Under the pieces are notes generated by a model. It was not told the DNA's origin, made no database searches, and worked only from the letters and a program-made list of their open reading frames with translations. From the NCBI GenBank assembly GCA_030743815.1, contig JASLRT010000086.1, positions 1-51,296 of the forward strand: a stretch of 51,296 bases of DNA, written 5' to 3'. The translations under genes and the position numbers were made by a program. The stretch is from Candidatus Neomarinimicrobiota bacterium (GTDB lineage: Bacteria; Fidelibacterota; Marinisomatia; Marinisomatales; S15-B10). Positions 3,222-7,604 of this stretch are shown here, in pieces; position 1 is the first letter of the stretch, and each line of letters starts with the position of its first letter.

Positions 3222-3890
3222 CTACTTCTCTCGGAAACCGATGCGATCGAATGGGTTTACAACACTCGAGATCATATTGTTCAGATGGGAGCTGATTCGC
3301 TTTAGGTATCGGACATATAGTGCTAGAGCAGCGGAGTCGCCAGCCGATATATCTTTTACTTTTCCTTTGGCCAGATCGTTAACGATCTGATCACAAATAC
3401 CGCTGACCTCAGTCTTGAATGTGCTCATCATCTCTCTTGCCTCTTCAACTGCCTGATCCTTGAGAACAGTGATCGTCTGATCAAATCTCTCTTTTATCTG
3501 ATTCTCGATCTCGTTCAGGGATTCTTCGTAGGGAATCACAGTTAATCTCAAGGGATGGGCCTCTGCCAGATCGAGAATGTTCTTGCTGTAGTCGCCGATT
3601 CGCTCGATATCAATGACAATACTCACAAGGACCATTCCGCCGGGAAGATCAGTGGGCCCTTGCAGGGCACAATGGGTCATCACTTTTCTGCGCACATCCC
3701 GTTCGTAGGCATTTACCTTCTTGTCGCTCCGACGAATCTCCCTGTTTATTTCAGTATCATCACTCTCTCGAAGAATCCTCACTGCTTCAAAATACATAGC
3801 ACGGGCGATTTCCAGCATCTCATAAGATTGGTCCCATGCCTGAACCAGCAGGTCATGCGATTTCCACAGTTTTGTCAGTTCTTTCCACAT
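3222..3890 (-). CDS. PhoU-domain phosphate regulator
   Basis: The 222-residue all-helical protein is about the size of a two-repeat PhoU. Repeat-like segments include NREIRRSDKKVNAYERDVRRKV (residues 48-70), with the acidic/basic E/D-x3-D metal-site pattern, and VSIVIDIERIGDYSKNI (residues 86-103), with the conserved D-x2-RIGD signature. It lies downstream of, and on the same strand as, the Na/Pi transporter gene, 132 nt away. Many NptA-type transporters carry a fused PhoU domain; here it is a separate gene. An AGGT motif sits upstream of the ATG. Probable role: controlling phosphate uptake through the adjacent transporter. Confidence 0.8.
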   Translation of the reverse strand: MWKELTKLWKSHDLLVQAWDQSYEMLEIARAMYFEAVRILRESDDTEINREIRRSDKKVNAYERDVRRKVMTHCALQGPTDLPGGMVLVSIVIDIERIGDYSKNILDLAEAHPLRLTVIPYEESLNEIENQIKERFDQTITVLKDQAVEEAREMMSTFKTEVSGICDQIVNDLAKGKVKDISAGDSAALALYVRYLKRISSHLNNMISSVVNPFDRIGFREK

Positions 3891-4022
3891 GATATTACCT
3901 CATGACTGAAATTAGTGATAACGGAGTGAAGATTGAAATACTAAAGCCACAGATAAGCGCTGATCTTCGGCGAAACGATGTTCGATCTTGTCTGTCTATT
4001 CTTAAGTTCATTCTATCCGTGA

Positions 4023-5111
4023 TCAGGTTAGGAAAATCAATGCTACCGGCACAAAATGCAGAAGGATATAGACAGTGATGAATAAGATCAGATGTTTGGT
4101 AGAGCTACCGGCTTTGTCACCCACAAACAGGGCCAGCCGAATGGGGATGAACTTGAGGGGGTAGAACAAAAGGATTCCAAAAATATTGAAACAGAGATGA
4201 GAAAAGGCGACGGTGATGGCTACACTGTTCTGAGTTGCCATGGCGGCTAGGATTGCGGTCACCGTCGTTCCTATGTTTGCGCCAAGAGTATACGGGAAGA
4301 TTTGTCTCACAGATACAAGACCAGCACCTGCCAGAGGTATGATAAGAGAAGTGGTGACGGAACTACTCTGGACTATGGCCGTCATCAATATGCCGAATAT
4401 GAAACCGAAGATATCGTTTCTGAAAAGGTAGTTGCCGATGATTACTTCCATCTTCGTCAACATCAGAACCCGAATTGTCTTTACTAAGAAAGTTAGTGAT
4501 GCGAACATGAGGAGGAGTGAAAAGACGATCATAAGAGCACTTTTGTAGGGCAGCAGAGAGAAGATGTGATCAAGCCAACTGATGGCGGGATTGAGAACAA
4601 TCTTCAAAGGATTGAACATCTTCAATCCACCGGCTCCGAAGAATCCGTGTTTTAATAGAGAAGCAGTTCGCTCAATGATGTGAAACTTCATCTCAACAGG
4701 GAATAAGACGATGACAACACATATATTAAAGAAGTCGTGTACGATACTCGCGGAGAATGCCCTGCGGAATTCTTCCCTGCTCTTGATATGACCGAGAGAA
4801 ACAAGCGTATTCGTGACGGTAGTCCCGATGTTTGCTCCCATGATGATAGGGATGGCGTTGCTCAGACTGAGAGCATTTCCGGCAACAAGACCGACCACGA
4901 TGGCAGTTGTCGTTGATGAACTCTGGATTAGGCTGGTGGCAACGATGCCGATGATGAGACCGGCGAAGGGATTGGAGGTCATCTTAATCATTACTTCAGC
5001 CAAATCCTTAAACTGTTTGAAGGAGTGTCCGAGCAGTTTGATGCTGAGCAAGAATAGATAGATGGTGACAATAATAGTCAGCATCTTGATCAGTTTGGAT
5101 TGGGAAGTCAA
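4023..5111 (-). CDS. Na+/phosphate cotransporter family protein (NptA-type)
   Basis: The 362-residue inner-membrane protein has about eight to nine hydrophobic segments and two inverted copies of the Na/Pi signature: GIVATSLIQSSSTTTAIVVG (residues 55-74) with GANIGTTVTNT, and LMTAIVQSSSVTTSLI (near 245) with GANIGTTVTAIL. The paired QSSS motifs form the substrate and Na+ site in the SLC34/NptA family. It lacks the C-terminal PhoU extension found in longer homologues; a PhoU gene follows instead. The preceding 320-bp gap should hold the promoter. Identification as a phosphate symporter is strong; direction and ion coupling are inferred from the family. Confidence 0.88.
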   Translation of the reverse strand: MTSQSKLIKMLTIIVTIYLFLLSIKLLGHSFKQFKDLAEVMIKMTSNPFAGLIIGIVATSLIQSSSTTTAIVVGLVAGNALSLSNAIPIIMGANIGTTVTNTLVSLGHIKSREEFRRAFSASIVHDFFNICVVIVLFPVEMKFHIIERTASLLKHGFFGAGGLKMFNPLKIVLNPAISWLDHIFSLLPYKSALMIVFSLLLMFASLTFLVKTIRVLMLTKMEVIIGNYLFRNDIFGFIFGILMTAIVQSSSVTTSLIIPLAGAGLVSVRQIFPYTLGANIGTTVTAILAAMATQNSVAITVAFSHLCFNIFGILLFYPLKFIPIRLALFVGDKAGSSTKHLILFITVYILLHFVPVALIFLT

Positions 5112-5433: not shown

Positions 5434-5811
5434 TTATTCTTCAGCGTCTCTCTCATCACCCCCCTTCTTGTCCATATAGTCTTTGACAGTATCGGCAACT
5501 TTTGGTGCCAGATCGAAGAGCCGGCCCATGATACTTTCCTCCTGTTTCAGCGAATAGAGCCGGGCGCCTTCCTTACCGACAACGAAGAAAGCCAGCGGTT
5601 CAATGCTCCAGCCGCCGCCGACACCTTCGCCTGTATTGCCTTTCTTTTTTTCATCGGAACCGCCACCGCCGGCACCAAAACCGAAACTGACCTTTGAAAC
5701 AGGAATGACTGTGTAATCTCCCGCCGAGATGGGATCTCCTACAACAGTCTTTGTCTGCATCACACTTTCCAGTTCCTTCATGACATTCTTGATGAGTTCG
5801 GAAACAGCCAT
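5434..5811 (-). CDS. GerW/YtfJ-family protein
   Basis: The start at 5811 is chosen because GGAGGTCATC sits directly upstream; an open frame extends 20 codons further without a comparable site. The 125-residue protein begins MAVSELIKNVMKELES and has the family layout: a segment around VVGDPISAGDYTVIPVSKVSFGFG, a Gly-rich stretch (GAGGGGS, GEGVGGGWSIEP), then AFFVVGKEGARLYSL, and a charged tail. GerW (YtfJ) is known from Bacillus, where it affects spore germination, but homologues occur in many non-spore-formers with unknown role. Its partner gene (DUF2953) lies 20 nt upstream, the same order as ytfI-ytfJ. Confidence 0.85.
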   Translation of the reverse strand: MAVSELIKNVMKELESVMQTKTVVGDPISAGDYTVIPVSKVSFGFGAGGGGSDEKKKGNTGEGVGGGWSIEPLAFFVVGKEGARLYSLKQEESIMGRLFDLAPKVADTVKDYMDKKGGDERDAEE

Positions 5812-5831
5812 GATGACCTCCTGATTATTGG

Positions 5832-6434
5832 TTAACGTTTGTGAAAGAGATACGTGGACCCGAGCCGCCATGCCAGGACGGCTGGTCTAAAACTGACAGC
5901 TGATCTGCAGTCGAGATCCACGATCTGCCTATCGAAATCCGGCGTCATATTTACATTGAACCTATGACTGCCGATGAATGCATTGAGAATTGACAGTGCG
6001 CCGAAGAACTGGCCTGTCACTGCCGGATTCTGCCAGCCGAAAACGCCTCTGATCCCGAAATCGCGCCACTTGATTGATCTCTTCACCGCAGCCAGCAGTT
6101 TTCCGTAAGGGATGGCCGTAATCTTCGACCATCGCTTCGAGATCGGTTGCTTCTCCTTCGCTTCAGCAGTCACTTTTTTTTCTTCCGGTTTCTTTCCGCC
6201 CAGGCGCCACTTGAACCGTTCCCTTCCAGGAGAGCCGAGGAACAGGTAGCTCATGCTTTCGATCCGGGCAAATCCGATCCCCATATTTCGACCTCCCAGT
6301 GCCACAGCTATCCGGTAGTCCAACTCATTCTCCTTCAGCAGAATGCTTGCCTGAAAGCGGATATACCAAGACAGAAACAGAAATAGGACGACGATCGCTG
6401 CGAAGCTTGCGAGAATGAGGAGAAACGTAGCCAT
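5832..6434 (-). CDS. DUF2953-family membrane-anchored protein (YtfI-like)
   Basis: The 200-residue protein has one N-terminal membrane segment (residues 3-25, ATFLLILASFAAIVVLFLFL) and a soluble part with a basic linker (KKPEEKKVTAEAKEKQPISK, about residues 83-102). The C-terminal region includes WRDFGIRGVFGWQNPAVTGQ and a DLDCRSAVSFRPAVLAWRLG segment typical of DUF2953. The adjacency to a GerW gene, as in ytfI-ytfJ of Bacillus, supports the call and suggests that the two proteins act together at the membrane. No biochemical role is known to me. It is divergent from phoH, sharing a 213-bp promoter region. Confidence 0.75.
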   Translation of the reverse strand: MATFLLILASFAAIVVLFLFLSWYIRFQASILLKENELDYRIAVALGGRNMGIGFARIESMSYLFLGSPGRERFKWRLGGKKPEEKKVTAEAKEKQPISKRWSKITAIPYGKLLAAVKRSIKWRDFGIRGVFGWQNPAVTGQFFGALSILNAFIGSHRFNVNMTPDFDRQIVDLDCRSAVSFRPAVLAWRLGSTYLFHKR

Positions 6435-6487
6435 AGGAAGGCAAAAGATACGTGATAATCGTTTCGAAAAACAGGAGATTTGTGTGA

Positions 6488-6514
6488 AATGACAAATCGG
6501 TTGGTCTTGTCATT
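6488..6514. promoter_or_regulatory. Palindrome overlapping a candidate phoH promoter
   Basis: AATGACAA (6488-6495) and TTGTCATT (6507-6514) are exact complements, 11 nt apart. The right arm contains TTGTCA (6507-6512), a good -35 match, followed 17 nt later by TAGTTT (6530-6535), a modest -10. A second GACAA (6520-6524) also pairs with TTGTC. This looks like an operator or leader hairpin in the divergent phoH/DUF2953 spacer. No bound factor can be named. Confidence 0.4.
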
Positions 6515-6620
6515 GAACGGACAAATTGTTAGTTTTAGCTGTGCTTTTCGAAATAGTATTGCGTGTGATTGGGATGGAAATCGCACAACGTGTAAATGAT
6601 GGATGGGTGGTCGGGCCCGG

Positions 6621-6642
6621 GAGCCTCAGAGAGGCTCTTTTT
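6621..6642 (+). terminator. Intrinsic terminator-like hairpin immediately before phoH
   Basis: GAGCCTC (6621-6627), loop AGA, GAGGCTC (6631-6637), then TTTTT (6638-6642) form a perfect 7-bp GC-rich stem with a T-tract. The phoH ATG is at 6648, only 5 nt later. The 3' arm also holds the only GAGG resembling a ribosome-binding site. No plus-strand gene lies upstream, so the hairpin either ends a short leader or small RNA, or acts as an attenuator of phoH. Confidence 0.7.
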
Positions 6643-6647
6643 GATTA

Positions 6648-7604
6648 ATGAAGAAGACAGTTGAACTTCGTGATGTAGATCCGCTGGGAATTGCCGGCGT
6701 TGCCGATGTGAATCTGAAGATCCTTGAGGATGCTTTCCCGTGTAAGATTCTACTGCGGGGCAGCACAGTCACTCTTGAGGGGAAAAAGGAGGATACAGCA
6801 CAGGTGGAGGAAGTGCTCAAGGAAATGATGAGGACGTACAGCAGGAAAAATTCGCTCACCGACGGCGATGTCCGTTCTCTTGTAGCTTTGATCTCGAACG
6901 GGGATCACGTTCCGCAAGAGCAGCAGGAGTCTGTCATCCTGTATACCAAGCAAGGCGCCATAATGCCCCGATCTGAGGGGCAGAGAAGACTCTACGATCT
7001 TGCACGATCGAACGATATGGTTTTTGCCATCGGTCCGGCGGGAACGGGGAAGACCTATCTGGCAGTGGCCTTTGCTGTGGCGGCTTACAAGAATCGGGAG
7101 GTAAAGAGAATCGTACTTTCGCGGCCTGCGGTGGAGGCAGGTGAGCGGCTCGGTTTTTTGCCCGGTGATCTGAGAGAAAAGATCGATCCTTATCTGACCC
7201 CGCTCTATGATGCGCTCAATGAAATCCTTTCGGCGGCGACCCTCAAGTCACTCATGTCAAAGCGGGTGATCGAAGTGATACCTCTGGCGTACATGCGGGG
7301 CAGAACTTTGAATAACGCCTTTGTCATCCTAGACGAAGCCCAGAACAGTTCCGCCATGCAGATGAAAATGTTTCTCACAAGGCTCGGCCCCAATTCGAGA
7401 GCCATCATTACCGGCGACGTGACGCAGATCGATATTCCGGAGAAGGAGGAATCGGGACTTCTGCAGGCGGTAAGGATTTTGAAGGGAATCGACGGTATCG
7501 GCTTCGTGGAGCTGACGGAAACCGATGTCGTCCGCCACAAGCTGGTAAAAGATATCATCATAGCCTACAGCGGCAGCAATCAAAAGGGGAAAAGAGATGG
7601 ATAG
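6648..7604 (+). CDS. PhoH-family ATPase (PhoH-like/YbeZ type)
   Basis: The 318-residue cytoplasmic P-loop protein begins with the family's small KH-like N-terminal domain (VDPLGIAGVADVNLKILE). Walker A is GPAGTGKT (residues 129-136) and Walker B is VILDEAQ (residues 226-232), followed by a GDVTQID sensor region. Length and motifs match the YbeZ/PhoH-like group, often linked to RNA metabolism and YbeY. The homology-supported start is ATG 6648, directly after the hairpin at 6621-6642. The 3' end overlaps the thiolase gene by 8 nt. The family call is secure; the exact cellular role in this organism is not known. Confidence 0.9.
   Translation: MKKTVELRDVDPLGIAGVADVNLKILEDAFPCKILLRGSTVTLEGKKEDTAQVEEVLKEMMRTYSRKNSLTDGDVRSLVALISNGDHVPQEQQESVILYTKQGAIMPRSEGQRRLYDLARSNDMVFAIGPAGTGKTYLAVAFAVAAYKNREVKRIVLSRPAVEAGERLGFLPGDLREKIDPYLTPLYDALNEILSAATLKSLMSKRVIEVIPLAYMRGRTLNNAFVILDEAQNSSAMQMKMFLTRLGPNSRAIITGDVTQIDIPEKEESGLLQAVRILKGIDGIGFVELTETDVVRHKLVKDIIIAYSGSNQKGKRDG

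Follow-up and report, generated by a model that had tools for sequence, protein, structure and literature searches.

The trp attenuator of Sinorhizobium meliloti (rnTrpL/peTrpL) gives rise to an RNA whose 5' end is the initiation codon of a short, leaderless upstream open reading frame (uORF) coding for 14 amino acids; a terminator precedes the structural gene, and the terminated product is a small RNA (PMC7298713). In vmlR and related antibiotic-responsive attenuators, a uORF and an intrinsic terminator likewise stand ahead of a translation-linked gene; the vmlR uORF attenuator senses stalled ribosomes, and a switch between antiterminator and anti-antiterminator has been demonstrated (PMC9226507). 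A 5'-terminal ATG or GTG is enough for translation in mycobacteria, and in E. coli a leaderless GTG is poor (PMC4633059). In Streptomyces, tetracycline induces phoH/ybeZ by way of WblC, and the PhoH/YbeZ protein associates with ribosomes (PMC7157823).

The window analyzed here is a stretch of 51,296 nucleotides, the whole of contig C86 of a 2.11 Mb draft genome (G000) of a Candidatus Neomarinimicrobiota bacterium. It carries phoH, which codes for a ribosome-linked ATPase, behind a leader that resembles the trp and vmlR attenuators at most by analogy. With the former it shares a predicted RNA start at the start codon of a short candidate uORF, a terminator ahead of the structural gene and a predicted terminated small RNA, and with the latter the pairing of a putative uORF and an intrinsic terminator at a translation-linked gene. 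Unlike the S. meliloti leader, however, it lacks a stretch of Trp or comparable diagnostic codons, its candidate uORF begins with GTG rather than ATG, phoH is not a biosynthetic gene, and no antiterminator was found in it, nor any switch of the kind demonstrated for vmlR. WblC/WhiB7 control in Streptomyces links phoH/ybeZ output to translation stress, as is proposed here, but does so through an activator protein at the promoter, and the uORF attenuation in that system acts on wblC itself, not on phoH (PMC7157823). Predicted signals and their conservation argue, with a probability of about two in three, for a transcription attenuator specific to this lineage in the phoH leader. Such a leader is ordinary in kind; its interest lies in possible control by a leaderless uORF.

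The predicted promoter and terminator upstream of phoH

Both sequence and conservation place an intrinsic terminator between the predicted promoter and the phoH start codon (Table 1). Its core consists of GAGCCTC (6621-6627), an AGA loop (6628-6630), GAGGCTC (6631-6637) and a run of T (6638-6642), and it folds as a 9-pair stem once flanking G and U bases join. Five bases, GATTA, separate it from the ATG at 6648. A sequence-only reading had described this hairpin at 6621-6642, 5 nt before phoH, and had remarked that no plus-strand gene precedes it; all of its coordinates are correct, and the DUF2953 and YtfJ-type genes that occupy the upstream interval (5434-6434) both lie on the minus strand. 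The hairpin alone is unconvincing, since a loose terminator scan found four against 4.0 expected from shuffles, which is not significant. A strict rule, which required a minimum of 7 pairs and 4 G-C, no more than one G-U and a tail rich in U, was applied to both strands of 312 kb of the genome, comprising the window and 20 other stretches (L162-L181). Nine terminators were found, and the phoH hairpin is the only one of them within 25 nt before an ORF start (ATG). Intrinsic terminators are very rare in this genome at that density, suggesting that it ends transcripts by other means.

Table 1. Features of the phoH leader and adjoining genes in the window
Feature	Position	Strand	Remarks
DUF2953 gene, divergent upstream neighbour	5832..6434	-	swapped for other genes in some relatives
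-35 element TTGTCA	6507..6512	+	TTG invariant in 12 relatives
-10 element TAGTTT (clade form TANTTT/TATTAT)	6530..6535	+	TA invariant
Conserved 5' box GTGCTTTTCGAAATA	6541..6555	+	at or beside predicted transcription start; near-identical in four families
Candidate leaderless uORF, 35 codons (VLFEIVLRVIGMEIAQRVNDGWVVGPGSLREALFD)	6541..6648	+	starts at box GTG; TAA overlaps A of phoH ATG (TAATG)
Upstream hairpin GTGTGATT...AATCGCAC	6563..6586	+	folds in window
Intrinsic terminator GGAGCCTC-AGA-GAGGCTCT + U tract	6620..6642	+	scan, fold, kept in 11/12 genomes
phoH	6648..7604	+	PF02562, Pfam E = 1.1e-90; sole copy in genome

The promoter elements, which had been proposed from the sequence at the positions given in Table 1, are present in the window with a spacer of 17 nt, the length found in all 11 genomes in which it was measured, and they recur upstream of phoH in 12 of 12 clade genomes. 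A generic sigma-70 scan of the window did not return the TTGTCA/TAGTTT pair, and it is conservation that supports it as the putative promoter. The box that follows reads GTG CTT TTC GAA ATA. Between box and terminator, the second hairpin suggested by the sequence-only reading is real, with arms at 6563-6570 and 6579-6586, but it is slightly shorter than the 6563-6597 proposed, and its sequence is not conserved: six outer pairs are possible in the relative G001, and other lineages have unrelated hairpins at this place.

The named phoH record nearest to the window gene belongs to a Candidatus Marinimicrobia bacterium (56% identity). Genes for a PhoU-like protein and a Na/Pi-cotransporter lie nearby at 3222-5111, and in G008 and G009 the gene adjacent to the leader also resembles a phosphate transporter, hinting at a phosphate connection of phoH in the clade. 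Downstream, the start of a thiolase gene falls within the final phoH codons (7597-7604); phoH and the thiolase gene are therefore probably co-transcribed, and the influence of the attenuator may extend to the latter.

Conservation of the leader among relatives

phoH was searched in 60 relatives, and the upstream regions were read in phoH orientation. The clade considered here comprises the 12 genomes, window included, whose phoH is at least 68% identical, in families f1, f3, f4 and f5. Comparison of their upstream regions reveals a common unit composed of TTG (-35), 17 nt, TANTTT (-10), 5-6 nt, GTG(C)TTTTCGAAATA, ~60 variable nt, an AGCC(T/C)-type stem, a U tract and the ATG. Promoter and box are present in all 12 genomes and the terminator in 11 of them. 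Distances are nearly fixed, at 79-82 nt from the box GTG to the stem and 105-109 nt from the box to the ATG. The earlier suggestion of a leader of roughly 100 nt ending at the hairpin is supported. The comparison shows the predicted promoter, start box, terminator and spacing to be one conserved unit attached to phoH.

The stem itself provides further evidence. The hairpin is found at the same place in 10 relatives, in one of which it is displaced from the gene, and is lost in one; the sequence-only reading had made its claim depend on homologous phoH upstream regions carrying the hairpin, and 11 of 12 clade genomes, window included, do. Three stem pairs have changed on both sides, and pairing holds in 90.6% of cells, compared to 30-65% when the pairing is slid by one to three bases. 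The U tract directly 3' of the stem is kept, although it is short in some relatives and interrupted in G005. A covariance model run over 171 genomes of the class recovered all twelve leaders and nothing else at full strength, and in the 98 phoH loci examined beyond the clade (18 from the same order, 80 from other genomes) the 30 nt ahead of the gene yielded no terminator. No match to any of 4227 Rfam covariance models was obtained in 6380-6760 at E up to 5, with gathering and loose thresholds, and a literature search found no paper on a phoH attenuator or on small RNAs and terminators of Marinimicrobia. Judged by these comparisons, the phoH leader with its own predicted promoter and terminator is a real element, conserved, confined to one clade and apparently undescribed. 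In a tree the clade phoH proteins group together with moderate support, except that G007, which does not have the unit, falls inside the group. This genome (L202, C11) is placed in the same family, its phoH is only 50% identical and long-branched, and the phoH leader is absent; mis-binning or a fast-evolving genus is possible.

Two lines of evidence indicate to which gene the leader belongs. The gene upstream varies, being the divergent DUF2953 gene in several f1 genomes, a phosphate-transporter-like gene in G008 and G009, and others in f3, f4 and f5, while the leader stays. G002 has lost the stem but keeps the promoter and box at their normal distance, which argues that the leader belongs to phoH and that the promoter probably feeds phoH in that genome. 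G002 also favours a leader over a separate small RNA; the earlier proposal of an attenuator or a short RNA is supported. In G013, ~170 bp of other sequence lie between terminator and phoH, a spacer compatible with either reading. The insert (L012:1322-1500, C55) contains CACTAAGGCATCAAGACACAAAG; taken over its whole length it does not recur as a multi-copy repeat, and one partial copy of 28 nt occurs elsewhere in G013.

A candidate leaderless uORF and control of read-through

In 12 of 12 genomes, 5-6 nt separate the end of the -10 element from the conserved GTG, so transcription would start at or beside this codon, as in leaderless mRNAs. The uORF frame that opens there passes through the terminator hairpin in the window, and in G001 it ends on the phoH start as well (ATGA). 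In 11 of the 12 genomes it stays open for 19 codons or more, and in nine the stop is at codons 20-23, giving a candidate uORF of ~20 codons in most lineages; in lineages other than the window genus, ~10-21 nt lie between the stop and the stem's AGCC. The only short frame, of 10 codons, is that of G002, in which the terminator is lost. Openness in six of six lineages has p ~0.002, or 0.0125 counting G002, by dinucleotide shuffling after the box, a test that was devised after looking, so that the open-frame statistics are suggestive only. The uORF peptide has no amino-acid conservation beyond the box, and the other two frames are equally conserved. Nor does the peptide show any sign of selection: between G000 and G001, 13 codon changes are non-synonymous and 2 synonymous, and substitutions have no excess at third positions. 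A leaderless -10 signal was not seen genome-wide in G000, in a gene set that includes operon genes and crudely chosen starts.

In the proposed mechanism, RNA polymerase would initiate at ~6541 from the dedicated promoter, much of the transcription would halt at the hairpin (at ~6640) with release of a ~100-nt RNA, and the remaining polymerases would read through to yield phoH mRNA. We infer that transcripts start and stop at the leader and that read-through is regulated; phoH is probably made only upon read-through of the hairpin. Pairing of the leader with the 5' arm of the terminator is no better than in shuffled leaders, and the consensus fold of the leaders holds the terminator and no other conserved structure. 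With no antiterminator found and a terminator-only consensus fold, occupation by ribosomes becomes the most economical switch, if there is any switch, and a fixed leak is the main alternative to it.

The likeliest regulator, put forward tentatively and with rather less than even confidence, would be ribosomes on the leaderless uORF beginning at the conserved GTG. In the window genus, a ribosome translating across the hairpin would hinder its folding and allow polymerase to enter phoH, whereas in the other lineages a ribosome slowed at the uORF stop just ahead of the stem would have the same effect. The output of phoH would thereby be tied to the state of translation. It is more doubtful that the GTG of the uORF is the very first base of the transcript and that ribosomes directly block the terminator without any antiterminator, adjusting phoH to the translation state; if this leaderless-uORF reading is true, the TAATG overlap would add translational coupling in the window genus. 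Taken together, the uORF data suggest, but do not prove, translational control of phoH. Such translation-sensing control would fit the Streptomyces example described above, because PhoH/YbeZ is ribosome-associated and induced by tetracycline there.

Alternative readings and implications for phoH control

Plain constitutive attenuation, in which the terminator sets a lower level of phoH without sensing anything and the open frame is due to chance, is somewhat unlikely. The failure to find an antiterminator, a conserved aptamer or a conserved peptide speaks for it, and the U tracts look leaky in several relatives, but the strict box and box-stem distance across families exceed the apparent needs of a weak promoter, and the openness of the frame (p ~0.002) also speaks against it. 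A separate trans-acting small RNA of ~100 nt, with a terminator that merely adjoins phoH and a phoH gene whose transcription depends on leak or an undetected promoter, appears distinctly improbable. A complete promoter-RNA-terminator unit with a 5' box conserved like a seed would suit such an RNA, as would the separation of terminator and phoH by ~170 bp in G013; however, the unit occurs only at phoH although other neighbours change, G002 has the promoter but no terminator, and a further phoH promoter could not fit into the five bases that separate the terminator from the ATG. Moreover, the central part of the RNA lacks conservation, and the terminator is the only conserved fold of the RNA. 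An 18-nt complement to the box within a VIT1 gene of the same genome would offer a target, but conserved codons (FEKHK) account for this site, and pairing is not kept in most relatives. The exact complement lies inside the coding region of a VIT1-family transporter gene (L131:1501-1514; G000 C95:8015-8028); VIT1 was rejected as a trans target, the 18-nt match of G000 containing one wobble in G001 and being lost or codon-explained elsewhere. 6S RNA (RF00013), a small RNA expected in such genomes, was likewise rejected as an identity of the leader, which has no match to the model. A weak candidate for 6S itself is found elsewhere, at G000 C35:12468-12650, and probable 6S genes are present in nine of fifteen genomes (loci L035-L042 and the G000 C35 locus), mostly just under the Rfam cut-off; the RF00013 model seems to fit this group poorly.

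Two further readings dispense with termination as the point of control. The sequence-only reading had raised the idea that the hairpin may also hide the phoH ribosome-binding site; in the rival form of this idea, it would act on translation of phoH and not as a terminator. The GAGG in the 3' arm of the stem, and a stem end ~15 nt or less from the ATG throughout the clade (except in G013 and G002), would fit this idea, which nevertheless proves weak and very unlikely: the GAGG begins 17-19 nt before the ATG in the clade (17 nt in the window, at 6631-6634), outside the interval of ~8-13 nt before starts at which GAGG/GGAG words are enriched in G000. The U tract is also kept directly after the stem, and about two thirds of the genes in this genome have no SD word. 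There is similarly little chance that a phoH repressor uses the 5' box as its DNA operator and that the terminator is incidental. The box does contain a palindrome, TTTCGAAA, beside the promoter, but genera g2 and g5 have a broken palindrome and an intact GTG and T run, and no trace of such an operator was found at other promoters. As a genome-wide operator the box was rejected, its near-matches being as numerous as those of a reversed-pattern control; exact matches elsewhere in the order all lie outside phoH leaders and are chance-like.

Attenuation within the phoH leader bears on phoH/ybeZ, a very widespread gene of which neither the regulation nor the precise part played in ribosome maturation is well understood. 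A leaderless uORF, if real, would represent a simple means of sensing ribosome activity without alternative RNA folds, and an attenuator that works by ribosome occlusion without an antiterminator would, if true, be found in a phylum of which hardly any members have been cultured. With a dedicated attenuator fixed in this clade, the dose of phoH there is probably controlled during transcription elongation, and the leader provides a concrete, testable element.
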